Origin: a virus | IMG/VR virus record: IMGVR_UViG_3300049734_000047 | Span: 1 to 43,065 of that record | Length of the DNA stretch: 43,065 bases | Strand: one strand, 5' to 3' | Shown: in pieces, positions 4,642-36,046 of the stretch | How positions within the stretch are numbered: the stretch's first letter is position 1 | How the letters are laid out: every line of letters begins with the position of its first letter | Notes under the pieces: generated by a model | Database searches by the model: none | The model's input: only the letters and a program-made list of their open reading frames with translations | Told to the model about the DNA's origin: nothing | Made by a program: the position numbers and the translations under genes

Positions 4642-4646
4642 CAAGG

Positions 4647-8750: not shown

Positions 8751-8788
8751 GAGAGGTGGAGCGATGCCGAGAGGAGTACGGAAAGTCA

Positions 8789-8799: not shown

Positions 8800-8800
8800 C

Positions 8801-9253: not shown

Positions 9254-9254
9254 C

Positions 9255-9542: not shown

Positions 9543-9958
9543 TGACCTCGAAGCCCTGCCCGCGCGTCGGACAGCCGCACTGCCTCGGCACGATCACCGA
9601 TCGTGACGCGTGGCACCTCGCCCGACGGCGCACCTGCTCGAAGCGGTGCGCCTGGCACTGGAAGGCGTCGCGCGGCATCAGACCGCACGAGCACGTCACG
9701 CCGGCGGGGAGCGTCAAGCGGCGCGCCGGCGCCGTGAAGGGCGCACGGATCGCGGCTGATCGCCGGCACCGGTCGGCTATGACGCGCGCCGTTTCGGCCT
9801 GCGCCGATCTCATCCCGGCGGAGTTCGAGCGGGAACTGTCGGCCCGCGCGCTGGCGCTGGTGAAGGCATTGATCGGGCGCGGCTTCGAGCGGGGCCGGTT
9901 GAATGAAGTCAGGCGGCAGGATCTGATCCGGCGCCGGCAGAACGGAGAGGCGGCGTGA
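9542..9958 (+). CDS. Small basic Cys-containing protein
   Basis: 138 residues from ATG 9542. The N-terminus has Cys residues in PCPRVGQPHC and RRTCSKRCAWHW, a possible zinc site resembling CxxC-type recognition of DNA. The remainder is helical and strongly basic with an Arg-rich end (LIRRRQNGEA). It overlaps both neighbours. Function unknown; nucleic acid binding is plausible from charge and Cys pattern. Confidence 0.5.
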   Translation: MTSKPCPRVGQPHCLGTITDRDAWHLARRRTCSKRCAWHWKASRGIRPHEHVTPAGSVKRRAGAVKGARIAADRRHRSAMTRAVSACADLIPAEFERELSARALALVKALIGRGFERGRLNEVRRQDLIRRRQNGEAA

Positions 9959-10398: not shown

Positions 10399-11133
10399 AT
10401 GAGAGACAACCTGTTCGACGAGAAGGACGGCAAGTTCGACGTCTACGCTGGGTGCGAGATTGGGGAGACGATCCGGCAGGCTATTCAGAAGGCGACAAGC
10501 GAGAAGCGCGCGATCGCGTTCGACTTCAACGGCGTGACGGTGACGGTGGACGCCGAGTCGAATCACGAACTGATCTACCGTGACTGGAATCGGGCGCTTC
10601 GCGGCTACATCGATAAGGTCATCGGGCCGAATCCAGCGCACACGCTGACGTCTGCCGACCTCACGCACGACGCCGAAATCGAGGCGCAGAACGAAGCGCG
10701 GCGCGCGGCGGATGACGCCGTGTACGCCCGTCGTGCGGCAGAGAAGAAATCAGCCACGGACGCGCGACTGGCGCAAGCGCCGCCGTTGGCGCTTTTGGAT
10801 GCCGACGCATGGCAAAAGAGCAAGGACGCCAACAAGGACGGCTACGGCGGCGCGGTGATGACGTACGCCGAGCAGTGGGCGCGGCTCATGCAACTCGACA
10901 TCGCGAACGGCTCGGCACTGGAGAGCATCGCGGAGGCGACGTCCTCCGAAGCCGACACGGAAGGCATCACAGGGTTCATGTACGGCTGCGCGGTGTCCAT
11001 CTTGGCGAAGTGCTGGCAGCACGGCGACCAGCTCCGGCGCTGGCACAACCTCAAGACGCAGATCCGAGACGAAGGTGAGCGCGCGAACGAATCCGGCGGC
11101 GTGCTGAATCCAGCGCTGCTCAACATCGGGTGA
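10399..11133 (+). CDS. Hypothetical phage protein
   Basis: 244 residues, ATG 10399 behind AAGGAG. The N-terminus has alternating beta segments (KRAIAFDFNGVTVTVDAES), the centre (about 95-130) is a charged Ala/Arg/Glu-rich helix, and the C-terminal third is helical and holds a conserved-looking AVMTYAEQWARLMQ segment. No known motif. It begins a run of small accessory genes of unknown role that ends before the terminase. Confidence 0.55.
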   Translation: MRDNLFDEKDGKFDVYAGCEIGETIRQAIQKATSEKRAIAFDFNGVTVTVDAESNHELIYRDWNRALRGYIDKVIGPNPAHTLTSADLTHDAEIEAQNEARRAADDAVYARRAAEKKSATDARLAQAPPLALLDADAWQKSKDANKDGYGGAVMTYAEQWARLMQLDIANGSALESIAEATSSEADTEGITGFMYGCAVSILAKCWQHGDQLRRWHNLKTQIRDEGERANESGGVLNPALLNIG

Positions 11134-13369: not shown

Positions 13370-13804
13370 ATGTCCTCATCGCGTAGCGCGAAGACAGCGC
13401 GGCCCCTCAGCGAACGCGAGCGGCGCTTCGTCGAAGCCTACATGGGCGAGGCGGCCGGCAACGCTACGAAGGCCGCCCTCATCGCCGGCTACTCACATCG
13501 CTCAGCCAGGTCGATGGCCAGCCGGTTGTTAACAAAGCGCAACAACGTCCGGGCCGCCATCGCCGCCCGCGCGAAGACAGACGCCCTCGTCGCCAGTCGG
13601 GAGACCAGGCAGCGGTTCTGGACGTCGGTCCTGCACGGCAAGGGGAAGTTTGCGAAGGTGCCATGGCGCGACCGGCTGAAGGCGTCCGAGCTGCTCGGGA
13701 AGAGCCAGGGCGACTTCATCGAACGCCACGAACACACCGGCAAGGACGGCGGACCGCTGCGGGTGACGTTCGGTGGCCGCTACAAGCCGGAGGCGCAGTC
13801 GTGA
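13370..13804 (+). CDS. terS: Terminase small subunit
   Basis: 144 residues. LSERERRFVEAYM, NATKAALIAGYSHRSARSMASRLL and NVRAAIAAR match the N-terminal HTH of the Terminase_2 family, which binds pac or cos DNA and delivers it to the large subunit. The C-terminal KVPWRDRLKASELLGKSQG segment is also typical. ATG 13370 lacks a strong ribosome site. The large subunit follows after one inserted methyltransferase gene. Confidence 0.85.
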   Translation: MSSSRSAKTARPLSERERRFVEAYMGEAAGNATKAALIAGYSHRSARSMASRLLTKRNNVRAAIAARAKTDALVASRETRQRFWTSVLHGKGKFAKVPWRDRLKASELLGKSQGDFIERHEHTGKDGGPLRVTFGGRYKPEAQS

Positions 13805-14433
13805 GCGAGACGTCGGCGGCCACCGTGCCCTTCGTCTGGACCTACACCGGCGGCGATCCGTCGATGCTGTTGTTCACGCGGATGATCGAGCGTCAGCTCT
13901 GCCCGCTGTCGCTGCCGCTACCTGCCGCCTTCGGTCCAGTGCTGCTCGATCTCGGCTGCGCGGAGGAGGATTGGGTTGACCAGGCGCGCCGTCAGAACCC
14001 GACGCTCGAGGTCTACGGCCTCGACTGGCGGCTCGGTGGCCAGGATGCGAAGTCGCCGGACCTCTACCCGCCAGAGACGCTGAGCCTCATCGCCTGCCTC
14101 GGCGCCATCGAGCACTTCGGGCTTGGCTACTACGGCGACCCGAAAGACCCGTACGGCGATGTCCTCGCCGCGAGGAACATCGCACGCTGGCTCCTGCCTG
14201 GCGGCTACGCCTTCATCGACGTACCCTGGACGCCGAACGCGGAGCCGTTCGAGACGTTCCATTGGCGCTGCTACACGGACACGTCGCTGGCGCAGCGGTT
14301 GATTGCGCCCGGGATGGTGGAGGTCGATCGGTTCTACGCGCACGCGCACACCCACGAGGTCTACGCAGGGCCACCGACGGAGCACGAGCACCCGTTCACG
14401 TACTGCGCGGTCCTGCTTCGGAAGCAGGGATGA
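13801..14433 (+). CDS. DUF268-like class I methyltransferase between the terminase genes
   Basis: 210 residues, GTG overlapping the terS stop and end overlapping the large subunit ATG. A SAM-binding motif LLDLGCAEE (residues 48-56) is followed by an acidic strand end in VYGLDWR, then GAIEHFGLGYYGDP at about 101-114 and WLLPGGYAFIDVPW. The IEHFGLGRYGDP signature is that of DUF268-type methyltransferases found in sugar-biosynthesis clusters. The target here is unknown; nucleotide, glycan or protein are all possible. Its place inside the packaging operon is unusual. Confidence 0.65.
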   Translation: MSETSAATVPFVWTYTGGDPSMLLFTRMIERQLCPLSLPLPAAFGPVLLDLGCAEEDWVDQARRQNPTLEVYGLDWRLGGQDAKSPDLYPPETLSLIACLGAIEHFGLGYYGDPKDPYGDVLAARNIARWLLPGGYAFIDVPWTPNAEPFETFHWRCYTDTSLAQRLIAPGMVEVDRFYAHAHTHEVYAGPPTEHEHPFTYCAVLLRKQG

Positions 14434-15821
14434 GCGCCGAGCTCGTCACGGTCGATCGGGAAATCGCCATCTGGTGGGCACCGATTCCGGACACCGCGCA
14501 GGAGGCCTTCTTCGACGACGACACGCCCGATGCGGCGCTGCTGTTCTGCGGCGGCTGGGGCAGCGGCAAGACCATGACGCTCTGGGGCAAGGCCCTGAAG
14601 TTGTCGGCCATCAATCATCCGCTGCCGCTCATCTGGGTCGTCCCGACCTACGATCACGTCCTCAAGACGCTGCTCCCAAAGCTCGAGGAACTGACCGAGG
14701 ACGGGCGGCCGTGGTTCCTGACGCCGGATCAGTATCACTACCACGAGACGCAACACGAGTTCACCTGGCTCGGCGGCGGGCCGATCTGGTTCAAGTCGGC
14801 GGCGGACGCCGAGGATGCGAAGCGGATCGCGGGGCCCAACGTCGCCGGCGCGCTGGTCGACGAACCGGCGCTGATCTCGCAGCGGGCGTGGCGGAACACC
14901 ACGGCGCGCGTGCGGCATCCGAGCGCGAAGCTCAGACAGACCGCGGCGGCGGGCACCGCGGACGATCTCTCCTGGATGCAGGACTACTTCTTCGACCCGG
15001 AACGGCCGGCACGTTACAAGCGGTACGACATGTCGCTGACCGAGAACAGCGAGCTCCTGAGCCGGAACCCGGAGTACTTGGCGCAGGTGCAGGAGAACGC
15101 GACCGAGCAGGAGATCGAGGCCTTCGTTCACGGCAAGGGCGTCGTGCTCGACGGCCAGCCGGCCTATTCCATGTTCAGGGACACGCTGCACTGGACGGAA
15201 GACGTGCAGCCGCCGGACCCAAACCTGCCGCTGGTGCTGACCTGTGATTTCAACGTCGCGCCGATGGAGTGGGTGATCGGGCAGGTGGTCGCCGGGCCGC
15301 ACGGGCCGGAGCCGCACGTCGTCGACGGGATCTCTAAGCAGGTTGCGACGATCGACACGGCCTGCGATGCCGTGCTAGAGAAGTATCCGAGCTGGCCGGC
15401 CGGGTTCCACGTCTACGGGGACGCCACCGGGCGTGCGCGGCACGTCAAGTCGCACAAGTCGAACTACAGCATCATCTCGGAACGGCTCTCCGTGTCTGGT
15501 CCGGTCGATGTACGCGTCCCCTTGGCGAATCCAGGCGTCAGCGATCGGCTGTCCGCGGTCAATCGGCTGCTGAAGAACGCGAACGGGGTGACGCGGCTGT
15601 GGATCCGGAAGTGGTCGCCGTTCCGCACCTGTCCGACGCGGTCGCTCGTGCGGTCCCTGCAGCGGACGACCCAGAAGCAGGGCGCTGAGGTCGAGGACAA
15701 GCCATCCGGCGAGACGATCACCCACGCGTCATCGGCGCTCGGGTACTGGATCGTGAGGGAATGGCCGACGCAGAAGCCGGTGCAGAACGTGGGCTCGGCC
15801 ATGATGGAGCACCTGCTGTGA
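14430..15821 (+). CDS. terL: Terminase large subunit
   Basis: 463 residues. The packaging ATPase shows Walker A GGWGSGKT (41-48) and Walker B ALVDEP with Asp144 and Glu145. The RNase H-like nuclease begins at DFNVAPMEW (Asp273) and continues with GDATG (Asp331). The third position, usually Asp in HASDALGY-like motifs, reads HASSALGY here. The enzyme cuts concatemers and pumps DNA into the prohead through the portal. Start ATG 14430 overlaps the methyltransferase stop. The family is certain; nuclease completeness is open. Confidence 0.92.
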   Translation: MSAELVTVDREIAIWWAPIPDTAQEAFFDDDTPDAALLFCGGWGSGKTMTLWGKALKLSAINHPLPLIWVVPTYDHVLKTLLPKLEELTEDGRPWFLTPDQYHYHETQHEFTWLGGGPIWFKSAADAEDAKRIAGPNVAGALVDEPALISQRAWRNTTARVRHPSAKLRQTAAAGTADDLSWMQDYFFDPERPARYKRYDMSLTENSELLSRNPEYLAQVQENATEQEIEAFVHGKGVVLDGQPAYSMFRDTLHWTEDVQPPDPNLPLVLTCDFNVAPMEWVIGQVVAGPHGPEPHVVDGISKQVATIDTACDAVLEKYPSWPAGFHVYGDATGRARHVKSHKSNYSIISERLSVSGPVDVRVPLANPGVSDRLSAVNRLLKNANGVTRLWIRKWSPFRTCPTRSLVRSLQRTTQKQGAEVEDKPSGETITHASSALGYWIVREWPTQKPVQNVGSAMMEHLL

Positions 15822-16048
15822 GCGCCCCGAAGCGCATCGGACGGCCACCGATCGCCGCCGACGCGCACGATGTGACGACGCGGGTGTCTGGAGAGACCTA
15901 CGACGAGGCGTGCCGGATCGCGCTAGCGCGCGGCATCTCGCTGTCGGCGCTCGCGCGCGAAAGCCTGGAGGTCGTGATCCGCGTCTACCGGCGACGGGGA
16001 CTTTCTCCCCAACAAACTCGCCACGGAGCCTCGCCCTTCGTACCGTAG
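15818..16048 (+). CDS. Ribbon-helix-helix protein
   Basis: 76 residues from GTG 15818. KRIGRPPIAADAH is a basic, AT-hook-like start; TTRVSGETYDEACRIALARGISLSALARESLEVVIR has the strand and two helices of a MetJ/Arc (CopG) fold. Such proteins are usually DNA-binding dimers. It ends with TAG 16046-16048 and the portal reading frame continues in the same frame with no standard start. It may regulate late genes or assist packaging. Confidence 0.55.
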   Translation: MSAPKRIGRPPIAADAHDVTTRVSGETYDEACRIALARGISLSALARESLEVVIRVYRRRGLSPQQTRHGASPFVP

Positions 16049-16051
16049 AGC

Positions 16052-17593
16052 ATCGCCAATCTCTCGTACACCACGTCGACGGGATCGGGCGCGCCCGCCA
16101 TTCAGCATCCCACCTATCTCCGCTACAAGGCGGTCTGGCTGAAGCTGTTCGATGTCCTGCACGGGACAGGCGGCTTCGCCGACGCCACCTATCTCGTCGC
16201 GCACCCGCGCGAATACAAGGATCATCAGGCCACCAACCCGCGCAAGCCCACGAAGGCGCTCCTCGCCCGCCGCACGCTGGCGCACTACACCAACGTCGCG
16301 GCGACGATCCTCGAGCAGAAGGCCTCGGCGCTCTTCCGCCCGCCGATCGCGCGGACCGTGCACGGGAAGGCGGAAGGGCACGAGATCTTCGACTGGTGGG
16401 CGAACGTCGACGGCTACGGCTGCTCGATGACCGAGTGGATGTGGGACGGCTTCATCGCCGCCGGTGCCTTCGGGCATGTCTTCCACTACATGGACCGCGA
16501 CAAGGCGCCTGCTGGGACGGCCGCCGAGACCGCCGCGGATGCGTCGCAGCCCTACCTCCGGATCTACCTGCCGCTGGATGTCCCGGACTGGGTCCAGAAC
16601 GACCGCGGCGAGCTGATCGGGGTGAAGCTGCTCGAACCCATCCCGCGCACGAGTCTGAAGGAGGCGCCGATCCAGAACCAAGCGCGCCAGCGGCTGGTCG
16701 ACGAGACGACCTGGGAAGTCTACGACCCGGGCTCCCTGACGCCAGGCGACCAGGGACAGCACGGCTTCGGGACACTACCAGTCGTCGTGCAGTACGCCAA
16801 GCGGCGCCGGCTCGAGCCGCTGATCGGGCAGCCGATTCTCGGCGATCCGAACAGTTACATCCGGCTGTACAACCTCGACTCTGAAATCTCCCAGATTCTC
16901 CGCGGGCAAACCTTCGGCGTGCTGAACGCGCCGCTCGGCACGGGCGATCAGGCCACCGACGTCGCCGCGGCGAAGACCATGATGGGCGACGAGAAGGGCG
17001 TCGATAACGTCCTGTTCACGCCGCTGCCGGCGCAGTACGTCCAGCCCGAGACCGAAAACGTCACGGTCTACCAGGCCGAACGGTCGGACCTCCTGCGCCG
17101 GATCTATCGCCTCGCCGCGGCGCCCTGGGAATCGGACTCGAAGGATGCCGAGGCACAGGGCTCGCTCCAGCTGAAGCGCGAAGACATGAACCAGGTGCTG
17201 ACGTCCTACGCGGACCAGTGCGAGCGGACCGAGATTGCCCTGGCGAAGCTCTGGTTCCGGGCGCGTTACGGAGCCGACGCCTGGGAGTCCGAGTGGGAGC
17301 GCGCCGACGTCGTCATCACCTATCCCGAGACGTTCGAAGAGACGCCCTTCGCCGAGATCATCGAGCAGGCGCAGGCGGCGACGACGCTCGAGATGGGTCC
17401 GACGTTCATGAACGAGGTCCGGAAGCGGCTGGTGCCGAAGTTCCTCCCGGATGTCGCGCCAGAGATCGCCGCGAAGATCGAGAAGGAACTGGAGCAAACC
17501 GAGGTCAAGAGTCCGGCGCAGCAGAAGCTCGAAGAGATGGCGCTGCGGTTCAGCGGGCAGCCGGGCGCGCAGCCTGAGCCGGTGGCGGCATGA
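16052..17593 (+). CDS. Portal protein (DUF4055 type), start codon non-standard
   Basis: About 513 residues if read from ATC 16052. The frame is open from TAG 16046, and conserved-looking portal sequence (IQHPTYLRYKAVWLKLFDV, LARRTLAHYTNVAATILEQKASALFRPP) starts within 20 codons, yet no ATG, GTG or TTG occurs before GTG 16358. Starting there would remove about 100 residues. The body (YIRLYNLDSEISQILRG, LRRIYRLAAAPWES, SLQLKREDMNQVLTSYADQCERTE) fits the DUF4055 portal family. Portal rings form the DNA entry vertex. Order TerL, portal, MuF supports the call. Confidence 0.85.
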   Translation: MANLSYTTSTGSGAPAIQHPTYLRYKAVWLKLFDVLHGTGGFADATYLVAHPREYKDHQATNPRKPTKALLARRTLAHYTNVAATILEQKASALFRPPIARTVHGKAEGHEIFDWWANVDGYGCSMTEWMWDGFIAAGAFGHVFHYMDRDKAPAGTAAETAADASQPYLRIYLPLDVPDWVQNDRGELIGVKLLEPIPRTSLKEAPIQNQARQRLVDETTWEVYDPGSLTPGDQGQHGFGTLPVVVQYAKRRRLEPLIGQPILGDPNSYIRLYNLDSEISQILRGQTFGVLNAPLGTGDQATDVAAAKTMMGDEKGVDNVLFTPLPAQYVQPETENVTVYQAERSDLLRRIYRLAAAPWESDSKDAEAQGSLQLKREDMNQVLTSYADQCERTEIALAKLWFRARYGADAWESEWERADVVITYPETFEETPFAEIIEQAQAATTLEMGPTFMNEVRKRLVPKFLPDVAPEIAAKIEKELEQTEVKSPAQQKLEEMALRFSGQPGAQPEPVAA

Positions 17594-18444
17594 GCGAATC
17601 CCTGGCCGTGCTCACCGAGGCCGAGAAGCTGGCGAAGGTCGCCGACGCCGTCGGCCGATCGTACGCCACCGAGCTCGGGCGCGTCCTGCGCGACCTCGAG
17701 CGGCAGCTGCGGACGCTGGCGATCGCCGCGATCGAGGGGTCGGTGACGGCGCTCTCGCGCGCGGTGCGCGCCGCGAAGCTGAGGCAGGAGATCCAGAAGG
17801 CGCTCCGCGTGTCAGGCTTCGAGGCACTGACCAGGACGGCCACCGCTGACGCGCTCGATGCGCTCGTGGCCCAGATGGGCACGTTGCGCGGGGCGGCGAA
17901 GCTGGCCGCGTTCACGACCTCGGATCAGTCCCGGATCCTGGCGCTGAAGGAGATCGCGCGGCTCGACCTCGTCGGCGTCGGCGATGCCCTCGCGCACGCG
18001 CTGTGGCGCACGCTCGCCCAGGGACTGTACGCGCAGCGGCCGGTGACCGATCTACTCGACGACCTCAGTGAGGCCGTCGACGTCGAAGAGGCGCGGCTCC
18101 AGACGCTGTACGACACCACAGTCAGCATCTTCGGCCGGCAGGTCGAAGCGATGAAGACGCAGCCCGGGGACGTGTTCGCGTATGTCGGACCCGTCGACCA
18201 GAAGTTGCGGCCGTTCTGCCGGCAGCATGTCGGGAAGGTCTACACCAAGCCCGAGATCGACGCGCTGGACAACGGGCAGTTGCCGAACGTGTTCCTCACG
18301 GGCGGCGGCTACAACTGCCGGCACGTCTGGCAGGTGCTCAGCAAGTTCAGCGAGTCGCGCGACCTGCAGGGGACGGACCAGCGCATGCCGGAAGTGCAGA
18401 CCGCGATCGCGGCGCTGCCGCCCGGGGATCGGAAGGCGGCCTGA
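17590..18444 (+). CDS. Minor head protein, MuF-like morphogenesis protein
   Basis: 284 residues, ATG overlapping the portal stop. The N-terminal two thirds are helical. The C-terminal MuF-type module reads FAYVGPVDQKLRPFCRQHVGKVYTK-like sequence with Cys210 and His213, then GGYNCRHVWQ with Cys243 and His245, a recurring metal-binding-like pattern of this family. MuF proteins are minor components of the prohead next to the portal. Order and pattern agree, so confidence is high. Confidence 0.85.
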   Translation: MSESLAVLTEAEKLAKVADAVGRSYATELGRVLRDLERQLRTLAIAAIEGSVTALSRAVRAAKLRQEIQKALRVSGFEALTRTATADALDALVAQMGTLRGAAKLAAFTTSDQSRILALKEIARLDLVGVGDALAHALWRTLAQGLYAQRPVTDLLDDLSEAVDVEEARLQTLYDTTVSIFGRQVEAMKTQPGDVFAYVGPVDQKLRPFCRQHVGKVYTKPEIDALDNGQLPNVFLTGGGYNCRHVWQVLSKFSESRDLQGTDQRMPEVQTAIAALPPGDRKAA

Positions 18445-18755
18445 TGGGCGCGCAGATCACCGTCCGGAAGTCCTTCGGCGCGCTGGAGCACCTGGAGCTC
18501 GTGACCGCCGACGACATGCGCGAGATCGGGCTGCTCGCCAGGGAGCAGATCGTGCGCCGCACGATGAGCGGCCGCGACGCGACCGGCGCGCCGTTCGAAC
18601 CGTACTCGCCCGGGTACGCGAAGGCGAAGCGGCAGGCGCTGGGGACGACCGCGGTGAACCTCCAGGTGTCGGGCGGGATGCTCAACGACTTCACGATCAC
18701 CAACGTCCAGGTGTCGGACGAGAAGGCGAGCGTCACGCTCGGGTGGACGAAGTAG
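18444..18755 (+). CDS. Virion morphogenesis (tail completion-like) protein, N-terminal half
   Basis: 103 residues. RRTMSGRDATGAPFEPYSPGYAKAK followed by VNLQVSGGMLNDFTI is the signature of the phage virion morphogenesis family (P2 gpS-like tail completion). Usual family members run to 150-190 residues and end with a wHQ...RxFxGL segment. Here the frame stops at TAG 18753-18755 and that missing segment is found in the next gene, in the same frame. It may be one gene with an amber codon, or two proteins that assemble together. Confidence 0.7.
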   Translation: MGAQITVRKSFGALEHLELVTADDMREIGLLAREQIVRRTMSGRDATGAPFEPYSPGYAKAKRQALGTTAVNLQVSGGMLNDFTITNVQVSDEKASVTLGWTK

Positions 18756-19001
18756 ATGGCGGCGAAGAACACGACGTCGACGGTGCTGAAGAAGGCCCGC
18801 CGGGTGTTCTCGGCCTCGACGTTCATTCAGCGCAGCCGGCGCGAGTCGAGCGAGCAGAAAGCGATCTGGCACCAGGTGACCGGCGCGGGCCGCCGCGGCG
18901 TGCTGCGCCAGTTCTTCGGGCTCACGTCGGAGGAGCAGGCCACCGTGAAGCAGGTGCTCGAAGGACAGATCGCGGCGCGGCTCCGAAAGGCGGGCGCCTG
19001 A
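18756..19001 (+). CDS. Virion morphogenesis protein, C-terminal half as a separate frame
   Basis: 81 residues from ATG 18756, which directly follows TAG in the same frame. A basic start is followed by KAIWHQVTGAGRRGVLRQFFGLTSEE, the C-terminal signature normally joined to the upstream half. TAGATG allows coupled restart, and no separate ribosome site is visible. Most likely the second half of a tail completion-like protein made by reinitiation or readthrough. Confidence 0.6.
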   Translation: MAAKNTTSTVLKKARRVFSASTFIQRSRRESSEQKAIWHQVTGAGRRGVLRQFFGLTSEEQATVKQVLEGQIAARLRKAGA

Positions 19002-19435
19002 TGGCTGGCGGGATTCGTGCCCATCGCCTCGACTCGCTGCGCGCGCGGCGGGAAGCGGCCGGCCTGACGGTCGGCGATCTCGCGCGCATGGCCTCGGTGT
19101 CGGATCTCAAGATCGTCAAGGCCGAGAACGGCGACCCCGTGACCCCTGACATTACGGATCGTCTGCTCGATGCGCTCGGGCCGGCTGTGGTGCTCGTGTC
19201 GAGCACGGCGGCGAATCCGACGCGGTTTACGACGGCGGCGCATCGGTTCATCCGCGGCGACATCATCACGATCGCGGGCCACGTCGGCAGCGCCGCGCCG
19301 GTCAACGGGGATCAGTCCATCACGGCGACATCGGATCCCAACCATTTCACGATCGCGCTGGACGCGACGCTCGGCGGCGGGACCGGGGGCACCGCACGGC
19401 TCTCGGCGACGTCGCTCGGACTCGTCCGACTCTAA
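19001..19435 (+). CDS. XRE-type HTH fused to a virion-like beta domain
   Basis: 144 residues from ATG 19001. Residues about 5-60 (RLDSLRARREAAGLTVGDLA, then ASVSDLKIVKAENG and LLDALG) are an XRE-like helix-turn-helix. Residues about 63-144 (VLVSSTAANPTRFTTAAH, RGDIITIAGH, NHFTIALD, GGTGGTARL) resemble the small beta FCCH-like domains seen in phage virion proteins. The HTH is related to that of the gene at 21478. A structural protein that carries DNA-binding helices into the head is one reading; a late regulator is another. Confidence 0.6.
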   Translation: MAGGIRAHRLDSLRARREAAGLTVGDLARMASVSDLKIVKAENGDPVTPDITDRLLDALGPAVVLVSSTAANPTRFTTAAHRFIRGDIITIAGHVGSAAPVNGDQSITATSDPNHFTIALDATLGGGTGGTARLSATSLGLVRL

Positions 19436-19486: not shown

Positions 19487-20257
19487 ATGGCGAAGTTCGA
19501 GATCGAGATCGACGACAAGGGTGAGTTCATCGGGGCTGTCCCCGCCGAGCTGACGGCTGTCCTGGAAAAGGTCGGGACGGCGAAGTACGGCGAGGGCTTC
19601 GGGAAGGGGAACCAGAAGGCGGCCGCGGAAGCCAAGGCGCAGATCGATAGCAGCGTGGCGGCCGAGCGGTCGAAGTGGGAGATCGGCATCGCGGCCGATC
19701 GCGCCAAGTGGGGGGAAATCGAGGCGGCGTCCACGCACCTCAAGACCCAACTCGAAGCGACCACGACCCAAGCCCGTAAGACTCTGACGGAGCGCGAAGA
19801 AGCGCACGCACAGGAGATCACCCGTCGCGTCGATCGCGAGACCAAGCGGAACGACAAGATCCGGACCCTGGTCAACCAGAACCTGAAGGCGCTGGCGGCC
19901 TCCGCCGGCGCGCGGACGGAATCGCTGGGGGAACTCGAAGTGATTCTCCAGCACCGGATCGGGTATTCCGACGAGATGGAGCCCTTCGTGCTCGACGAGC
20001 AGGGGCAGCCGGCGAAGACCACGGCCGGCAATCCGTTGCCATTGGACGTGTTCGTGAAGCAGTACCTCGACGCGCATCCGCATCATCGCAAAGCACCGGC
20101 CGGCCAGGGCGGCGGAGCGCGAGGCGGGGCGTCGATGCACGGGCACACGACCACCGCGACGATCGACGGCGCCCGCGCGCGCGTCGAGGGCGGGGATCGG
20201 TCGCCTCAGGCCATCAACGATCTGTTTGAAGCGGGCCGCAAGCGCGCGGCCTCGTAA
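19487..20257 (+). CDS. Capsid scaffolding protein
   Basis: 256 residues, ATG 19487 behind AAAGGGA. Long charged coiled coil from about residue 40 to 130, further helix to about 170, then a Gly/Ala/His-rich flexible part and a short basic end (FEAGRKRAAS). This composition and its place directly before the major capsid gene fit a scaffold that guides shell assembly, as in GP20-like scaffolds. No protease motif is visible here or nearby. Confidence 0.75.
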   Translation: MAKFEIEIDDKGEFIGAVPAELTAVLEKVGTAKYGEGFGKGNQKAAAEAKAQIDSSVAAERSKWEIGIAADRAKWGEIEAASTHLKTQLEATTTQARKTLTEREEAHAQEITRRVDRETKRNDKIRTLVNQNLKALAASAGARTESLGELEVILQHRIGYSDEMEPFVLDEQGQPAKTTAGNPLPLDVFVKQYLDAHPHHRKAPAGQGGGARGGASMHGHTTTATIDGARARVEGGDRSPQAINDLFEAGRKRAAS

Positions 20258-20269
20258 GGGAGATAACCG

Positions 20270-21427
20270 ATGCCATTCTCCGGCATGTCAACGAACAAGT
20301 ACTTCACGCCGAATCTCGTCGGCGAGGACGTGTCGGAGGTCATCCGCACGCTCGCCCCGTATGAGGCGCCCTTCCTCGATTGGCTCGGCGACCCGGACGG
20401 GTTCGCGGCGAGCACCAAGCACGAGTTCATCGAGGACTTCCTGCGGCCGCGCACGATCATCAACTCGACCGCGATCGCGTCGGCGACCGCGGCGACCGGC
20501 ATCCAGGTCAACGGGCTGGCCGAGGCGCTGACCATCGGCACCATCCTGGAAATCACCGGGATCGCGCCCGAGCGCGTCCAGGTGAGCTCGATCGTGTCGG
20601 GCGGCAACTCGGTGCTCGTGACCCGCAACTACGACGGCGCCGGCATCGGCTCGCTCGCCGCGGGCTCGACGCTGCAGGTCCGCGCGCCGTCCGCGCCGGA
20701 AGGCGACGAGCACGCGGGACTCCACACGGCCCGGCTGGGCAACCGCCGCGCCAACACGGTGGGCTACTTCAAGATCGAGATCGCGGCCACGGGGACGTCG
20801 ATGGGCGTCAACCTGTACGGCGGCGACTCGTACGATCTGGCCCGCGCGAAGGTGCTCCGCGAAGTCCCGGCCATCCTCGAGGCGGAAGTCCTCACCGGCG
20901 TGCTGAACGGGACCAACTCGCTCGGCACGGCGACGGCCACCCGCACGATGCAGGGCATCCGCGCCCAGCTCACGGCGATCAACTCGCAGGTCGTCGACGC
21001 CTCGTTCTCGGCGAACCCGCACCTGTGGATCGGCGATGCGATGCAGAACGCCTTCGGCAATGGGGCGGCGACCACGGAGACGTGGGGCATCATCGCCGGC
21101 GCGCAGTACTTCCGCGACATCAGCAACCTGAACGACACGAAGGTCCAGGACTCCAACCAGTCCGAGCTCTTCAAGCGCGTGATCCGCAACTACGCGGGGC
21201 CGTTCGGGCAGTGCACGGTGTTTCTGAGCCGGGCGCTGGCGTCGCGCGAACTGCTGATCGTGCCGCGGGAGCGCGTCCGCGTGCTGCCGCTGCAGTCGCG
21301 CAACTTCGTGTACCGCGAGATGGGGCTGTCGGGCGACAACACCAAGGGGATGATCGTCGGCGACTACACCCAGGAGACGTACCACCCGTCGGCGATGGCG
21401 CGCATCCGCACCACGTCACCGGCGTAG
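20270..21427 (+). CDS. Major capsid protein, SU10/DUF5309-like
   Basis: 385 residues, ATG 20270 behind AAGGGAG. The N-terminus DVSEVIRTLAPYEAPFLDWLG, the ALTIGTILEITG and VTRNYDG beta segment, and the C-terminal GMIVGDYTQETYHPSAMARI fit SU10-like HK97-fold capsid proteins. A central beta-rich portion (about 75-135) may be the insertion or E-loop region. It forms the icosahedral shell with the upstream scaffold. Highly expressed late gene, followed by a strong RNA hairpin. Confidence 0.85.
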   Translation: MPFSGMSTNKYFTPNLVGEDVSEVIRTLAPYEAPFLDWLGDPDGFAASTKHEFIEDFLRPRTIINSTAIASATAATGIQVNGLAEALTIGTILEITGIAPERVQVSSIVSGGNSVLVTRNYDGAGIGSLAAGSTLQVRAPSAPEGDEHAGLHTARLGNRRANTVGYFKIEIAATGTSMGVNLYGGDSYDLARAKVLREVPAILEAEVLTGVLNGTNSLGTATATRTMQGIRAQLTAINSQVVDASFSANPHLWIGDAMQNAFGNGAATTETWGIIAGAQYFRDISNLNDTKVQDSNQSELFKRVIRNYAGPFGQCTVFLSRALASRELLIVPRERVRVLPLQSRNFVYREMGLSGDNTKGMIVGDYTQETYHPSAMARIRTTSPA

Positions 21428-21434
21428 ACCTGAT

Positions 21435-21464
21435 GGCGGGGGCTGCCTGACGGCGGCCCCCGCC
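21435..21464 (+). terminator. Strong hairpin after the capsid gene
   Basis: GGCGGGGGC (21435-21443) pairs with GCCCCCGCC (21456-21464), and the inner bases extend the stem to about 13 pairs with one G-T and a four-base loop. No T run follows, so it is more likely a partial terminator or a 3' mRNA stabiliser for the capsid transcript than a full stop. Confidence 0.5.
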
Positions 21465-21477
21465 GATGGAGGGCACC

Positions 21478-21705
21478 ATGCCAGGTGGACACGGATCGCG
21501 CGCGGACAACCTGCGTGCGCAGCGGATCGCGGCCGGGCTCACCGGCGACGGCGGGCTGAACGGGCTCGCGGCGAAGGCCAACGTGAGCGTCAGCCTGCTG
21601 AAACGGTTAGAAGATGGCGGCACGGCGATGCCGCACGAGATCCAGCGGATTGCCGACGCGCTGGGCATCTCGACCACCACCCTCGGCAAGAAGGATCTGT
21701 TCTGA
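21478..21705 (+). CDS. XRE-type HTH protein in the head operon
   Basis: 75 residues, ATG 21478 behind GGAGGG. RADNLRAQRIAAGLTGDGGL, LAAKANVSVSLLKRLEDGG and IQRIADALGI form a full XRE helix-turn-helix with little else. It resembles the N-terminal domain of the 19001 gene (RxDxLRAxRxAAGLT, later DALG). Likely a DNA-binding dimer; its placement after the capsid gene suggests late control or a structural adaptor. Confidence 0.65.
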   Translation: MPGGHGSRADNLRAQRIAAGLTGDGGLNGLAAKANVSVSLLKRLEDGGTAMPHEIQRIADALGISTTTLGKKDLF

Positions 21706-21974
21706 TGGCCGTCTCGGGCTTCGCGATCGTCGATCAGTTCTGCCGCGCCGGCGAACTGCAGCCGCACTTCTACCGGCGCTGTCAGCGCGAGATGCGGGAT
21801 GACGTGCTCCCCCTGCTCGCGTGGGTCGATGCGCATGGTGGGCCCGATGCGGTGCGCGCGACGGTCGAACGGACCGAGGAACTGGAGGCCGAGAACCGGC
21901 AGCTGCGAGCGCAGCTCGAGCGCAGCGGCAAACTGAAGGCGAAGACGCAGGAGCCGGCCGATGTCAGCGCGTAA
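21705..21974 (+). CDS. Small coiled-coil protein
   Basis: 89 residues, ATG sharing one base with the previous stop. The N-terminal half (VDQFCRAGELQPHFYRRC) is helical; the second half (ERTEELEAENRQLRAQLERSG) is a clear coiled coil with Leu spacing. It overlaps the glycosyltransferase gene by 14 bases. Function unknown; it may be an assembly aid or partner of the neighbouring enzyme. Confidence 0.5.
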   Translation: MAVSGFAIVDQFCRAGELQPHFYRRCQREMRDDVLPLLAWVDAHGGPDAVRATVERTEELEAENRQLRAQLERSGKLKAKTQEPADVSA

Positions 21975-24900
21975 GCCGCTCTCGTGGGCCTTCCTGATCG
22001 ACTCGGTCGAGTTCACGCCGGCCGTCATCGCGGGCGAGACGTCGCTGGGCGGGTCGGAGTCGGCGGCGCTGGGCCTGGCGCGGGCGCTGCGCGCGCGCGG
22101 CCACGACGTGCACGTCTTCACGACGAAACTGTCGCCCGAGGCCGCCGGGATGGACGCGACGGGGCTGCAGTGGCACCACCTGTCCGAGTTCCGATCGAGC
22201 AACGAGTTCATCGAGTGGGACGTCTGCGTGGCGCTGCGGATGTGGATGGCCTACAGCGTCCAGACGTTCGCGCGGCTGCGGCTGCTCTGGAATCAGGATC
22301 TGCTCGTCCCTGGCGGCATGGTCGCCGGGGTCATGGCGATCACGTCGATGGTCGATCGCTGCTGCTACGTGTCGGAGTACCACCGGCAGCAGTGGCAAGG
22401 GCTCCTGCCCGACCTCGCGCCGATCGGGTGGGTCACGCGGAACGGGATCGATCTGTCGCAGGTGCCCACCGGGCGCACGAAGGATCCGAACCGGATCATC
22501 CACATCTCGCGCCCCGAGCGCGGGCTGGGCCCGCTGCTGACGCTCTGGCCGAAGCTGCGCGAGCGGCTGCCGACCGCCGAGCTGCGGCTGTGCCGCTACT
22601 CGTCGATGTACGACCAGGGGCCAGGAAGTTGGTCGGATACCTGCGCGGCGTTCGATCGGCGCGTCGAGGAGGTCAACAAGGCCGTCGGTGGGATCACGTA
22701 TCTCGGCGAACTGACCAAGCTGGCCCTGTACCGTGAAATAGCCGATGCCGCGGTCATGTGGTATCCGGGGGTGTCGACGTTCGCCGAGACGTCCTGCATC
22801 GCCGCGATCGAGGCGCAGGCGTGCGGGACGCCGTTCGTGGGCTCGTATCGCGGGGCGCTGCCCGAAACGGCGAAGACGTCGTTCGACGCCGGCCTACTGA
22901 TCAAGGGCGAGGCCGAACACGATCCGGTCTACGCGGACGCGGCGATCGCGTCGGTGCTCAGCCTGCTGGGCGGCTGCCGCAACAACTCGGTCATCTACCG
23001 GAAGCTGTGCCAAGCCGGGATCGCGCACGCGCAGCGATACGACTACGCGACGATCGCCGCCGAGTGGGAGGCCCAGGTCTGGGCGTGGTTCGCCGATCGG
23101 TACGAGACGCAGAAGATCGGCGTCCTGCGGCAGCTGCTCTGGGAGGACGACCACGTCGCGGCGAAGGAGCTCGCCCAGAAGATGGCGTTCACCGTCACGT
23201 CTGGCGATGGGCCGTTCGGCTACGACCACGGCACACCGGCGACCATCGCGACGAACCAGGAAGCCTGTCAGGCGCTCGCGTTCTGCGACAAGGTCATCGC
23301 CGGCAAGGACCAGGGCGCCGACGACTACGCCGAGCACGCGCTGCCGGATCCGGTGAAGGAAGCCGAGCTCTGCGGCCGGTTCAAGGCCGTCGTGCCCACG
23401 TTCGACAAGGCGACGCGGGTGCTCGACGTGGCGTGCGGCAACGGCGCCTTCGCGATCGCGCTCGCCATGGCCCATCCGACCGTCCAGATCGTCGGACTGG
23501 ACTACGCGGCTGGGAACATCGAACGGGCAAAGGAAGCGGCCGCGCGCGTCGGCGTCGCGGATCGCTGCCACTTCGAGCAGGCCACGGTCTACGACTTCGA
23601 CAAGCAGCAGATCCACGACGACTTCGTGCGCTTCGTCCAGCGCGTCAATCTGGACGGAGACGTCGGGCCCTTCGACGGGCTCTTCGTCGGGGAGTTCGTG
23701 GAGCACGTCGGCAACTGCACGCTGCTGGTCGACTGGCTCGAAGAGGCCCTCCAGCCTGGCGCGCGTGTCGTCTACACCTGCCCGCACGGCGCGTGCATGG
23801 AACTGATGCCCCGCGGCATCCCGGTCCGGAAGGGCCACGTCCACCGGTTCCATCACGACGACCTGAAGGCCGTCTGGGGGCCGAAGCAGGACTTCGAAGT
23901 CGATTACCTCTCGTTCGGGCTGAGCCCGCGGGGGAACCCCGTCGGGAACTGGATCGTGTCCTACACGGTCGCGCCCGATCGCCAGGCGGGGATCCGCCCG
24001 ATCGCCGAGCGCATCGTCAAGACGCGTCCCCTCCAGAAGCTCTCGGTCGGGATGATTGTCCGCGACGTCGAGAACGACCTGGGGCGCTGTCTCGCCAGCG
24101 TCTACCGGCTCGCCGATGAGATCGTCGTCGGCGACACGGGCTCAACGGACACGACCAGGGCGATCGCCGAGAGCTACGGCGCGCGCGTGATCGACGTCGC
24201 GCCGATCGAGGACCAGCCGGAAGGCTTCGCCGGCGCGCGCAACGCCGTGCTCGACGCCTGCTCGGGCGACTGGTTCCTGTGGATCGACGCCGACGAGATT
24301 CTCCAGCACGGCTGGAAGCTGCGCGGGTTCCTCGACACGGCGATCTTCCACGGCTACGTGCTGCACCAAACGCACGTCTACCTCGATGGCCCGCCCACCT
24401 TCGACGTGCCCCAGCGGGTGTTCCGCCTGGGCCGCGGCGTGCGGTTCTACGGTTGCGTCCACGAACAGCCGCAGGCCGGCGATCCCAACGTCGACATCGC
24501 GCCGGCGCTGGACCTCTCCGACCCGGTCATCGCGCACACGGGCTATCTGACCGAGGACGAGCGCGAAGAGAAGCGCGTCACCCGGAACAAGCCGCTGCTG
24601 CTCCGTGATCAGCAGGCGTTCCCCACGCGCGAGCTCGGGAAGGTCCTGCTCCTGCGGGAAGCGGTGATCGAGGCGGATCACCATCGCGCGCGCCACGGCG
24701 GCGAACTGACCCCGCGGGCGCGCATCGGGTATCAGCACGCCATCAACCTCTTCGTCCGCTACTTCGACGACCCGGGGCACAAGTTCGCCAAGATCGCGCG
24801 GCCGTGGTACGAGGCGGCGCTGCGGCATCTGCGGCACGGCTGGGAGGCGGAAGTCTCGCTCTTCGGAAAGCCGGGCGGGCTGCAGGGCGCGCGCGCGAAG

Positions 24901-25050
24901 CCCGAGATGATCTGGGTCCGGGACGGCGTCGAGTTCCAGCGGCTCATGGAGCACCGGATCAAGGACTCGGTCGCGAAGATGGCGCCGGTGACGTTCCGGA
25001 CGGAACCGTTCGAGCCGACGGCGGCGTCGCGTGAGGTCGTGAACGGCTGA
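21961..25050 (+). CDS. Three-domain GT-B glycosyltransferase, methyltransferase and GT-A glycosyltransferase fusion
   Basis: 1029 residues, ATG 21961 behind CAGGAG. Domain 1 (1 to about 385) is a GT4-like GT-B fold with GGSESAALGLARALRARGH near the start and the E-x7-E donor site at Glu276-Glu284. Domain 2 (about 470-670) is a SAM methyltransferase with VLDVACGNG at 487-495. Domain 3 (about 693-930) is a GT2-like GT-A fold, DTGSTD at 725-730 and DAD at 776-778. Together these would build a short, methylated glycan. It sits between capsid and connector genes, so glycosylation of virion proteins or of the host surface is inferred. Target and sugar are unknown. Confidence 0.85.
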   Translation: MSARKPLSWAFLIDSVEFTPAVIAGETSLGGSESAALGLARALRARGHDVHVFTTKLSPEAAGMDATGLQWHHLSEFRSSNEFIEWDVCVALRMWMAYSVQTFARLRLLWNQDLLVPGGMVAGVMAITSMVDRCCYVSEYHRQQWQGLLPDLAPIGWVTRNGIDLSQVPTGRTKDPNRIIHISRPERGLGPLLTLWPKLRERLPTAELRLCRYSSMYDQGPGSWSDTCAAFDRRVEEVNKAVGGITYLGELTKLALYREIADAAVMWYPGVSTFAETSCIAAIEAQACGTPFVGSYRGALPETAKTSFDAGLLIKGEAEHDPVYADAAIASVLSLLGGCRNNSVIYRKLCQAGIAHAQRYDYATIAAEWEAQVWAWFADRYETQKIGVLRQLLWEDDHVAAKELAQKMAFTVTSGDGPFGYDHGTPATIATNQEACQALAFCDKVIAGKDQGADDYAEHALPDPVKEAELCGRFKAVVPTFDKATRVLDVACGNGAFAIALAMAHPTVQIVGLDYAAGNIERAKEAAARVGVADRCHFEQATVYDFDKQQIHDDFVRFVQRVNLDGDVGPFDGLFVGEFVEHVGNCTLLVDWLEEALQPGARVVYTCPHGACMELMPRGIPVRKGHVHRFHHDDLKAVWGPKQDFEVDYLSFGLSPRGNPVGNWIVSYTVAPDRQAGIRPIAERIVKTRPLQKLSVGMIVRDVENDLGRCLASVYRLADEIVVGDTGSTDTTRAIAESYGARVIDVAPIEDQPEGFAGARNAVLDACSGDWFLWIDADEILQHGWKLRGFLDTAIFHGYVLHQTHVYLDGPPTFDVPQRVFRLGRGVRFYGCVHEQPQAGDPNVDIAPALDLSDPVIAHTGYLTEDEREEKRVTRNKPLLLRDQQAFPTRELGKVLLLREAVIEADHHRARHGGELTPRARIGYQHAINLFVRYFDDPGHKFAKIARPWYEAALRHLRHGWEAEVSLFGKPGGLQGARAKPEMIWVRDGVEFQRLMEHRIKDSVAKMAPVTFRTEPFEPTAASREVVNG

Positions 25051-25916
25051 TGACCTGGCACCCCAACGACCTGGTCGCGGACGCGGATCTCGTCGCCTAT
25101 GAGGCCAAGATCCTGACCGCGTTCAACGTGGCGAACTGGCAGGAGAAACGCGCCAAGGCACTCGAAGACTGGCTGTTCCCGATTCTCTCGGCACGCGGGG
25201 TGACCCCGGAGACCTTGCGGACGCGGTTCGAACCGGACACCGTCTTGGGCTACACGGCGGCCGCCTACGCCGATCTCACGGGCTCAGCGAAGGACGCCAC
25301 GGTCGACGACGTCGACCTCGCGGCCGTGTTCGCCACGCCGGCGAGCGATGCGCTCTACATCGGCTCGACGCAGCAGTTCCGCGGGCTGTCGATCCGGATG
25401 TTCGAGAACGTGTCGGCGGTCGCGTCGGTGCTCACGGTCTCGTACTGGGCGGACGCCTGGACCGCGCTGACCATCACCGACGGGACCGTGAAGACCGCCG
25501 GGAAGACGTTCAGCGGCGGCGGGTCGGTGACCTGGAGCGCGGCGGCCGCCACGGGCTGGGTGAAGCGCACGCTCAACGGGTCCGATCCGCTCTATTTCGT
25601 GAAGCTGACGGTGTCGTCGACGCCGACCAGCGCGAAGGCGGGGCAGATCGGGACGATCCGGCGCTCGGCACTCTGCGCGCCGGCGGCGCTGCGCACGCTC
25701 GCGCTCATCATGCGCGAAGCGCCCACCGGGGCGGCGGGCCCGTGGCTCGAGAAGGCGGCCTTCTACGGGGAGGAAGCCTCCCTCGCGCTCGAACGCGCGC
25801 TGCCGCTCGTCGGGCACGAGACCGACACCGACGAGAGCGATCAGGTCAGCCAGAGCGAATCCGAACAGACCCTCGAAGAAGTCGGCGGCGGGCCGTTCCG
25901 CATGGAGCGCGGGTAA
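25050..25916 (+). CDS. Putative head-tail connector or virion protein with inserted beta domain
   Basis: 288 residues, ATG overlapping the glycosyltransferase stop. N- and C-terminal parts are helical (LVAYEAKILTAFN and LRTLALIMREA, WLEKAAFY). Between about 95 and 200 lies a beta-rich insert (DALYIGSTQQFRGLSIRM, SYWADAWTALTITDG). The acidic C-terminus with SESEQTLEE resembles adaptor proteins that join portal and tail. The position supports a connector; the insert may project from the virion neck. Confidence 0.55.
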   Translation: MTWHPNDLVADADLVAYEAKILTAFNVANWQEKRAKALEDWLFPILSARGVTPETLRTRFEPDTVLGYTAAAYADLTGSAKDATVDDVDLAAVFATPASDALYIGSTQQFRGLSIRMFENVSAVASVLTVSYWADAWTALTITDGTVKTAGKTFSGGGSVTWSAAAATGWVKRTLNGSDPLYFVKLTVSSTPTSAKAGQIGTIRRSALCAPAALRTLALIMREAPTGAAGPWLEKAAFYGEEASLALERALPLVGHETDTDESDQVSQSESEQTLEEVGGGPFRMERG

Positions 25917-26353
25917 TGCCGGGGCCGCTGACGGGCGAGGTCATCGTCGATCGCGTCCGCTCCGTCTGCGTCGGCGCGCCGTTCTCCCTCGTGGAGGCGA
26001 CGCGCTGGTCAGACTTCGCGCTGCAGCCTGACGGCAACATCGACGGCGTGTTCCGGATTCCGCCGATGTCGAGCCAGTTCGTCAACGGCGGCTTCGCCTT
26101 CTCCGAAGACCGCACCGACTCGATGCAGATCTGGGTCGCGCGGCGAACGAACAACGATTACGACACGGTCCGGCGCACGCTCCTGAAGGACGTGCACAGC
26201 CTCACGGCGGCCATCGTGCGGGATGGCGCGATCACGAGTGGGGACTATCACATTCCGGATGGCGGCCGCGGGCACGCCATTCAAGAAGATCCCGGCCACG
26301 AGTACGTCACCCTGCGGCTCACGCTGCCGGTGAACTACGAGGCCCAGCTCTAG
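25916..26353 (+). CDS. Putative tail terminator or neck protein
   Basis: 145 residues, ATG 25916 sharing one base with the previous stop. A mixed alpha-beta protein (TGEVIVDRVRSV, DSMQIWVARR, TLLKDVHSLTAAIVRDG) ending in a long strand, EYVTLRLTLPVNYE. The size, layout and place just before the tail tube gene fit tail terminator or tail completion proteins (gpU-like). No exact signature seen. Confidence 0.5.
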   Translation: MPGPLTGEVIVDRVRSVCVGAPFSLVEATRWSDFALQPDGNIDGVFRIPPMSSQFVNGGFAFSEDRTDSMQIWVARRTNNDYDTVRRTLLKDVHSLTAAIVRDGAITSGDYHIPDGGRGHAIQEDPGHEYVTLRLTLPVNYEAQL

Positions 26354-26368
26354 AGGAAGGACTCGATC

Positions 26369-27433
26369 ATGCCTGGCAGAACTGGCCGTGAAATGAAGGG
26401 ATGGGCCTTCGCGAAGTTCGCCACGAACTCGTGGGGCGTAGCCGCCTCGGTCACCAAGGGCACGCGGTTCATGAGCGACGGCGGTGTCAAGTTCTCGCCG
26501 ATGTTCGTCGAAGACCGGTCCTTCGGCGAATCGTTTCTGGGCCCCGCCGACATCGGCGACACCAACCCGTGCGATCTCACCCTGCAGGGACAGGGTCGCT
26601 ATGAGGATCACAACTACATCCTCGAAGGGTTGGTCACGGGCTCGCCCACCGCGGTGGCGATCTCGACGTCGGCGGCCGGCCAGGTCACGAGCTGGCTGCA
26701 CATCTTCGACCCGGCCGCGTCGATCGATGGGCTCGGCGCGACGTTCGCGATCGATCGCGCGATGTACGTCGAAGAGGTGCCGTCGGCGAAGGTCTACGGG
26801 ATCTCGGAGGCGTTCGGCGACGGCGGGGTGCTCGAGTCGTCGTTCAAGGTGCTCGGCAACAAGGCGACGAACATCTCGTCGATCAACATCAACTCGACGG
26901 TCTACGGCGCCAGCTTCCCGGCCCTGAACGGCAAGATTTTCCGGAAGCAGGGCACGTACCGGATGAACGTGCAGTCTGGCGGTGCGCTGGGCTCGACCGA
27001 TGCGATCGTGATCGAGACGTTCGACTTCGCCTTCGAACGTCCACAGGATCAGACGTTCGGCACGGGGTCCGACACCATCGTGGAGCCGGGCGACAACGAG
27101 TTCCCGACGCCCACGGTGAAGGTCGGCTACCCACGCATGAACACCGTCAGCGCGAACTCGCTCTATGCGGCGCTGCGATCGACGACCGCCTTCAAGGCGG
27201 ACATGACCTTCGCGGGCGCGTTCATCAACTCCACCGACCAGTACACGAAGCTGTACCAGTTCCCCTACCTGGAGCTGCAGGACTTCGAGACGCCGACCGC
27301 GGGTGCCGCGCAGGTGAAGCCGGTGGCGACGTTCATCGCGAAGAAGCCATCGTCTGCGCCGATCGGGATGTCTGGCGTGACGATGCCGTTCCGGCTCAAG
27401 CGCATCATGACCAATTCGGTCACGGCGTTCTAA
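26369..27433 (+). CDS. Major tail tube protein
   Basis: 354 residues, ATG 26369 behind AGAGGAAGG. Two beta-rich repeats are visible: SDGGVKFSPMFVEDRSFGESFLG in the first part and a similar module ending TVKVGYPRM and MTFAGAFIN in the second, consistent with tube domains. It immediately precedes the chaperone pair and tape measure, which is the canonical place for the tail tube in siphoviruses. It forms stacked rings along the tape measure. Confidence 0.75.
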   Translation: MPGRTGREMKGWAFAKFATNSWGVAASVTKGTRFMSDGGVKFSPMFVEDRSFGESFLGPADIGDTNPCDLTLQGQGRYEDHNYILEGLVTGSPTAVAISTSAAGQVTSWLHIFDPAASIDGLGATFAIDRAMYVEEVPSAKVYGISEAFGDGGVLESSFKVLGNKATNISSININSTVYGASFPALNGKIFRKQGTYRMNVQSGGALGSTDAIVIETFDFAFERPQDQTFGTGSDTIVEPGDNEFPTPTVKVGYPRMNTVSANSLYAALRSTTAFKADMTFAGAFINSTDQYTKLYQFPYLELQDFETPTAGAAQVKPVATFIAKKPSSAPIGMSGVTMPFRLKRIMTNSVTAF

Positions 27434-27450
27434 CCCACACACGGAGGCGT

Positions 27451-27834
27451 ATGGCGCTCGTCCTGAAAGATGAATCGCACACCTGGGAGGTCTGCGACAA
27501 AGACCTCGTACCCGGCGGTGACAAGGACACGTTCTACACGGTGCGCCGGCTGACGCTGGAGAAGCACCGGGAGATTACCAAGCGGCACACCAAGCCGGGG
27601 ACGTTCCGCCGGCCGGAAGGGAAGCGGGACGAGGAAGCGATTCAGGACGATCTCTTCGACTACGTGCTCGAGAAGTGGCGCGGGGTCGAGAAGGACGGGA
27701 AGCCGGTGCCGTGTGAGTGGGAGTTCAAGGCGCTGCTGGACGTGCCGCGGCGGGTGGCGCTGCTCGACGAAGCCGGCCTAAACGACATCGCGGCGGCGGA
27801 GGACGCACGCGCCGAGTCGTTTCGCGGCGCTTGA
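27451..27834 (+). CDS. Tail assembly chaperone G
   Basis: 127 residues, ATG 27451 behind ACGGAGG. A beta N-terminus is followed by helical segments (YTVRRLTLEKHREITKRH and FKALLDVPRRVALLDEAG). Position between tail tube and tape measure identifies it as the shorter of two chaperones that coat the tape measure during assembly. A second coding frame begins at its end, and a TTTC slip site at 27820 could join the two. Confidence 0.7.
   Translation: MALVLKDESHTWEVCDKDLVPGGDKDTFYTVRRLTLEKHREITKRHTKPGTFRRPEGKRDEEAIQDDLFDYVLEKWRGVEKDGKPVPCEWEFKALLDVPRRVALLDEAGLNDIAAAEDARAESFRGA
27820..27823 (+). promoter_or_regulatory. Candidate +1 programmed frameshift site
   Basis: In the G frame the codons are TCG TTT CGC. 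A tRNA-Phe on TTT can slip forward to TTC, entering the T frame as GCG GCG CTT GAA. The shift must occur between the T-frame stop at 27779-27781 and the G stop at 27832-27834, and TTTC lies in this window. Confidence 0.5.
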
Positions 27835-35710: not shown

Positions 35711-36046
35711 ATGACGAAGAGGATTCTGGATCGAATCGCTGTCGCGGCGCTGAGCCTCAGTCTCGCGCTGCTGATAGTCGTTCGTACGGACGCTGGTCAG
35801 GCGCCCCCGGAGGCGAAGCCGGCACCGACGCTCAGCGTCGAGCAGAAGCAGGGCATCACGATCCTGGCGCAGCGGATCGAGTTGGCGCAGTTGCGCGCGC
35901 AAGCCGCCCAAGCCGAGTTCGACAAGGCACGCGGGGAACTGTCGACCCTGCTGCAGTCGCTGAAGAAGGACGGCTTCGATCTCGACCTCCAGACGATGCA
36001 GTACGTGAAGAAGCCCGACCCGCCGAAGGCGGACGGGAAGAAGTAA
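35711..36046 (+). CDS. Small membrane-anchored or secreted coiled-coil protein
   Basis: 111 residues, ATG 35711 behind GGGGGA. The N-terminus (MTKRILDR then AVAALSLSLALLIVV) is either a signal anchor or cleavable signal. A coiled coil follows at about 50-95 (QRIELAQLRAQAAQAEFDKA), and the tail is Lys/Pro-rich. The layout recalls an inner-membrane spanin subunit. No lysis protein signature proves it. Confidence 0.5.
   Translation: MTKRILDRIAVAALSLSLALLIVVRTDAGQAPPEAKPAPTLSVEQKQGITILAQRIELAQLRAQAAQAEFDKARGELSTLLQSLKKDGFDLDLQTMQYVKKPDPPKADGKK

Follow-up and report, generated by a model that had tools for sequence, protein, structure and literature searches.

Glycosylation of phage virions has been documented for few isolates. 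In the chlorovirus PBCV-1, the A064R protein joins two glycosyltransferases (GTs) and one methyltransferase in one chain, which synthesizes the terminal portion of the glycan on the capsid; a methyltransferase outside this chain, A061L, targets the same sugar (PMC9614988). In mycobacteriophages, glycans are carried on capsid and tail-tube C-termini and the GTs are phage-encoded (Freeman et al. 2023, as cited in PMC12619734); judged from the passages of PMC12619734 on that system, a GT-methyltransferase-GT fusion has not been described for it. Two further reference points are GmaR, the Listeria flagellin O-GlcNAc transferase, which adds GlcNAc to flagellin (PMC9638930), and the glycocin S-/O-glycosyltransferases SunS and ThuS. 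Virus-encoded virion glycosylation is already known as a kind, and what appears unusual in the sequences described here is the degree to which the enzyme is linked to the capsid gene.

The window, that is, the whole stretch of DNA that was analyzed, is the IMG/VR virus record IMGVR_UViG_3300049734_000047 (43,065 nt, from a virus). Its relevant features are:

13663–14433, forward strand: DUF268-like methyltransferase (PF03269, 33.6 bits, cut-off 25)
20270–21427, forward strand: major capsid protein (MCP) of the SU10 type (SU10_MCP PF17236, E 4e-36)
21466–21705, forward strand: 79-aa helix-turn-helix (HTH) protein (HTH_3, 25.1 bits)
21705–21974, forward strand: small conserved partner gene, 89 aa, whose homologues precede the fusion in 45 of 49 testable contigs
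21961–25050, forward strand: GT-B/methyltransferase/GT-A fusion, 1029 aa (open reading frame, Pfam, AlphaFold2, 27 three-domain homologues)
21961–23145, forward strand: GT-B domain of the GT4 type, residues 1–395, with E276-x7-E284 (PF13692, VIA, invariant motif)
23323–24000, forward strand: SAM methyltransferase domain, about residues 455–680, with VLDVACGNG at 487–495 (PF13847, RebM/AtmM profile matches)
24028–24630, forward strand: GT-A domain of the GT2 type, residues 690–890, with DAD at 776–778 and HEQP at 834–837 (PF00535, GmaR/SunS/ThuS)
24631–24996, forward strand: helical C-terminal region, residues 891–1012 (AlphaFold2 model of residues 675–1029; ThuS/SunS alignment)
25050–25916, forward strand: conserved 288-aa structural-operon gene, which also follows the fusion in relatives

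The fusion starts with an ATG that is preceded at 7 nt by AGGAG, and it overlaps both neighboring genes, as the first-pass annotation had reported, by 14 nt with the upstream 89-aa gene and by 1 nt with the downstream gene. The portal (phrog_145) and large terminase (phrog_979) genes lie upstream of the MCP. The fusion had also been placed between capsid and connector genes: its site in the head operon holds, whereas direct adjacency to the capsid gene does not, because the HTH and 89-aa genes intervene, and the name connector for 25050–25916 can be retained only as a statement of position, since the product matched no Pfam and no PHROG family. The 79-aa HTH gene occupies its place between MCP and fusion mainly in the closest relatives and is not general there in the clade. 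Synteny suggests that the fusion is expressed late; a scan of 20000–27500 for sigma-70 promoters and terminators returned nothing above chance, an uninformative outcome in DNA this rich in GC. HTH_3/HTH_31 domains occur in the head operon both at 21466–21705 and at 18182–19435, with related HTH pieces in the head operons of relatives. Besides the clear Terminase_2 match at 13370–13804, a weak small-terminase match (phrog_57) was detected late in the genome, at 35711–36046.

The three domains and their E-x7-E, VLDVACGNG, and DAD motifs are all present in the single 1029-aa chain, as first annotated, and the Pfam matches are all above cut-off (PF13692, 29 bits; PF13847, 48.8 bits, with other methyltransferase families besides; PF00535, 67.8 bits). 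The full-length AlphaFold2 model, built from 25 sequences, has a pLDDT of 89 and a pTM of 0.87, and structure prediction, which had been proposed as a check on the domain assignments, matched GT4, methyltransferase, and GT2 folds, so that both GT folds are represented. For the N-terminal part, VIA comparison gave MshA, BshA, PimA, and HepE at Z 31–33 (rmsd about 2.5–3.0 over about 320–345 residues), with sucrose-phosphate synthase in the same Z range; Foldseek likewise matched GT4 enzymes, and a search with the GT-B profile found weak, general GT4 matches only. On the strength of the model, the GT-B domain is a GT4-type glycosyltransferase, predicted to catalyze retaining transfer from a sugar nucleotide. 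The VIA matches listed for the full-length model were taken up by this domain, and the absence of other families from them is uninformative. A064R was not among the fold matches listed, which is no evidence against homologous domains.

The central domain is a class I SAM-dependent methyltransferase, with the class I fold and the glycine-rich motif I. Its profile matched RebM (5e-13) and AtmM (9e-13), both within the top three, and Foldseek also returned RebM and AtmM. This resemblance to sugar O-methyltransferases suggests methylation of a sugar rather than of a protein.

For the C-terminal GT-A domain, the profile search of solved structures, which sample GT2 enzymes thinly, placed GmaR (7e-34), SunS (3e-23), and ThuS (3e-21) well ahead of the next match (2e-11). 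The AlphaFold2 model of residues 675–1029 (pLDDT 90) aligned with ThuS (Z 22.0) and SunS (Z 21.5) along a stretch of about 276 residues, running into the helical region, where residues 891–1012 of the model follow the course of SunS/ThuS past the GT-A domain; the other GT-A fold matches listed reached Z 16 at most, over about 160–215 residues. The domain thus has a GT-A fold with a DxD motif, D776 and D778 being invariant, and its nearest solved relatives are polypeptide glycosyltransferases. GmaR, the nearest of them by sequence, has TPR, linker, and antirepressor domains instead of the partners found here (PMC9638930), and SunS and ThuS, near by both sequence and fold, possess neither a GT-B nor a methyltransferase domain. 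The fusion scored 44.3 bits against the SunS equivalog TIGR04195 (cut-off 350) and is not filed as SunS. Its placement near GmaR and SunS/ThuS suggests that the acceptor is a polypeptide and is modified in the cytoplasm. LPS glucosyltransferases (WaaE/LgtF) may also belong to the GT2 enzymes that have this type of motif, and kinship of the GT-A domain is therefore no proof of a protein acceptor.

Scans of viral contigs with the fusion as query gave about 40 loci and 27 non-redundant proteins that contain all three domains, a few being truncated where their contig ends. The order GT-B, methyltransferase, GT-A, which it had been proposed to look for in other phage head operons, recurs beside the capsid gene in relatives. 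In the 25-row alignment, the invariant residues are E276, E284, R184, and R187 in the GT-B domain, D489, A491, C492, G493, G495, D514, E578, E581, and H582 in the methyltransferase, and D776, D778, E779, H834, and E835 in the GT-A domain; E276 and E284 are invariant in both alignments (A3 and A5). Full-length identity to the window protein falls as low as 40%, so that the motifs must have been kept by selection, and the joint retention of three active sites argues that all three matter. A frame artefact or chance fusion is ruled out because the single frame and the catalytic residues persist in many homologues, including divergent ones. Searches of phage and plasmid proteins found partial, domain-level matches only, none covering 80%. 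The sole copy with a cellular label lies on a 9.8-kb contig (L013) in a Nitrospira MAG; no second copy was found in 32 genomes of the genus Nitrospira, L013 is therefore probably a co-binned viral contig, and Nitrospira was rejected as host.

So as not to select for the fusion, contigs were also scanned with the capsid protein as the sole query. This recovered 41 contigs; it reached capsid relatives of roughly 47% identity and up, and so describes this clade only, with some contigs closely related. Of the contigs that continue for 1.5 kb or more past the capsid gene, 32/32 contain the GT-B part, and of those that continue for 4.5 kb or more, 21/21 contain the complete one-frame fusion. Where both genes are held on one contig, the gap between capsid gene and fusion is 239–1060 nt in 45 of 47 cases, the remaining two being divergent contigs with inserts of 2.7 kb (L041) and 9.7 kb (L034). 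By Pfam, neither the additional genes that separate capsid and fusion in L034 nor those around L041 include glycan enzymes. Pairwise distances correlate at r = 0.895 for GT-B and MCP, 0.941 for GT-B and the downstream gene, and 0.927 for MCP and the downstream gene. The fusion is a core gene of the clade and is co-inherited with the capsid gene. We rejected the idea of a moron or auxiliary gene, as the fusion tracks the structural genes. A three-activity enzyme is as constant as the structural genes in an uncultivated clade, each testable contig having it close to the capsid gene. Two more distant capsid relatives, the cultured Sporosarcina phage Lietuvens (29%) and Fusobacterium phage phiRTG5 (25%), have no GT annotated in the stretch from capsid to tail genes. 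Two features of the divergent contigs are recorded here: in L034, about 9.5 kb (330–9800) separate a capsid-like fragment from the fusion, and the genes scanned there had no Pfam match; in L041, a 74-kb relative, Gp80-like fibre and Laminin_G_3 lectin-like proteins are encoded at 13881–19097, after the gene downstream of the fusion.

We propose that, late in infection, the fusion acts in the cytoplasm as a soluble enzyme with three activities and equips a virion protein of the phage with a short O-methylated glycan, and give this reading a probability of about 0.6. The C-terminal GT-A would begin by linking a sugar to a side chain of a capsid, head-tail, or tail protein, the N-terminal GT-B would add the second, and the central methyltransferase would O-methylate a sugar. 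This order, in which GT-A acts first, GT-B extends, and the methyltransferase caps, is inferred. Sugar donors would come from the host, because no epimerase (PF01370) was found in 14 records. That one protein could add two sugars and a methyl cap, as had been suggested at first annotation, is plausible by analogy with the chemically proven A064R. In both cases, one virus-encoded chain carries two GT domains (rhamnosyltransferases in A064R) and a methyltransferase, and the product of A064R is a methylated part of the capsid-protein glycan. A064R differs in its GT-GT-methyltransferase order, its length of 638 aa, and its GT domains, described as other families; it belongs to a virus of eukaryotic algae and acts on a pre-existing N-glycan. 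The best reading of the comparison is that the fusion would work like A064R, without evidence of kinship. If it modifies the particle, it would be a bacterial-virus counterpart of the chlorovirus enzyme and a compact one-chain tool with which proteins could be given a methylated glycan inside bacterial cytoplasm. The model predicts sugar and methyl mass shifts on a virion protein and is directly testable.

A virion protein as acceptor is supported indirectly, by the capsid linkage, by the kinship of the GT-A domain with protein and peptide glycosyltransferases, and by the lack of a thymidylate-synthase-type base hydroxymethylase. As in the mycobacteriophages, the GT genes are phage-borne, and here they are linked to virion genes (32/32 contigs). 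A crude scan of Ser/Thr density and C-terminal tails in the virion proteins revealed no obvious Ser/Thr-rich acceptor tail. Position beside the capsid gene can reflect timing instead of target. In a rival reading, the enzyme modifies a glycan on the surface of the host (LPS, teichoic acid, or capsule), either late in infection or in a lysogen, and so blocks re-adsorption or superinfection. Surface polysaccharides are a common target of the GT4 and GT2 families, and some relatives look temperate, an integrase scoring over cut-off in 6 of 14 records, which keeps this explanation alive for temperate members; the fusion is nevertheless kept in records both with and without integrase, constant in the head operon and co-inherited with the capsid, its GT-A domain is nearest to protein glycosyltransferases, and seroconversion cassettes usually include membrane glucosyltransferases. 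We consider a host-surface target unlikely.

Glycosylation of the phage DNA at a modified base is very improbable. DNA-modifying phage glycosyltransferases are well known (works cited in PMC12619734), but the fusion is placed among capsid genes, its methyltransferase is nearest to sugar O-methyltransferases, and the thymidylate-synthase-type base hydroxymethylase PF00303 was absent from 14/14 records, some of them fragments, while control genomes matched; this absence lowers the case for DNA. A search for Tet/JBP oxygenases found no match in the records, nor in any control genome, which makes it uninformative.

The protein encoded just before the fusion, of about 50–105 aa, is present in 45/49 testable contigs, and the four without a match (L034, L035, L041, and L042) are the most divergent. 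It follows a pattern similar to [HD]P..EE.CRAR...F.RWQR.LR.E.QP.LDE and often has a basic tail, with an AT-hook-like GRPRK in some members. A PHROGs search with it gave no convincing match, and by sequence this protein between capsid gene and fusion appears to be an undescribed family. Under the virion-protein reading, its role may be to bring the enzyme to the acceptor, or it may itself be modified. That it is the main acceptor, and that the product is a modified small protein or peptide much as SunS modifies its peptide, would accord with its gene adjoining the fusion, whose start it overlaps in the window, and with the SunS/ThuS similarity of the GT-A domain. However, the Cys of its EICRA motif is not invariant, being absent in L016, only one Arg and one Pro are invariant among 15 aligned sequences, and the basic tails look like binding tails; the protein may equally be an adaptor or head protein. 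We judge this explanation distinctly unlikely.

Podophage ctKR88 (MW202524) offers a partial parallel to the virion-protein reading. Its SU10-type capsid gene (PF17236, E 2e-64) is followed by one 165-aa gene and then by a GT2-TPR-GT4 fusion, after which come further GT and methyltransferase genes. As in the window, one protein joins GT4 and GT2 shortly after an SU10-type capsid gene, in ctKR88 as the second gene past it, and the GT domains are homologous (GT-B, E 4e-36; GT-A, E 9e-16); in contrast, the domain order is reversed, TPR lies in the middle, the methyltransferases are separate genes, and the capsid protein is only weakly related. A further Manatee Spring phage, MW202497.1, has GT2-family, groeL-annotated, and glycosyltransferase genes between terminase and portal (3472–7791). 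Given these arrangements, sugar enzymes inside head operons are recurrent. If the fusion modifies the particle, sugar-coated virions would be ordinary in these phages. A broader version, which we hold to be doubtful, is that glycosylation is a fixed step of head assembly throughout the clade, in which the fusion and a dedicated small guide protein would have decorated the capsid or neck of each particle with a methylated glycan since the origin of the clade, the ctKR88 lineage having assembled its own version.

The DUF268-like methyltransferase had been suggested to act on the same glycan. The gene exists: in the window it lies ahead of the terminase, and several relatives have it between a MuF-like gene and the gene before the capsid. 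A general partnership across the clade is not borne out, as about 9 of roughly 39 distinct contigs with MCP and portal were seen to carry it, a lower bound as some contigs are fragments. Found in a minority of contigs, it would be at most an optional helper. Elsewhere in the window, the C-terminal half of the protein encoded at 10399–11133 resembles Tad4, a type I Thoeris inhibitor (PF25186, E 9e-30; phrog_9822, E 2e-34).
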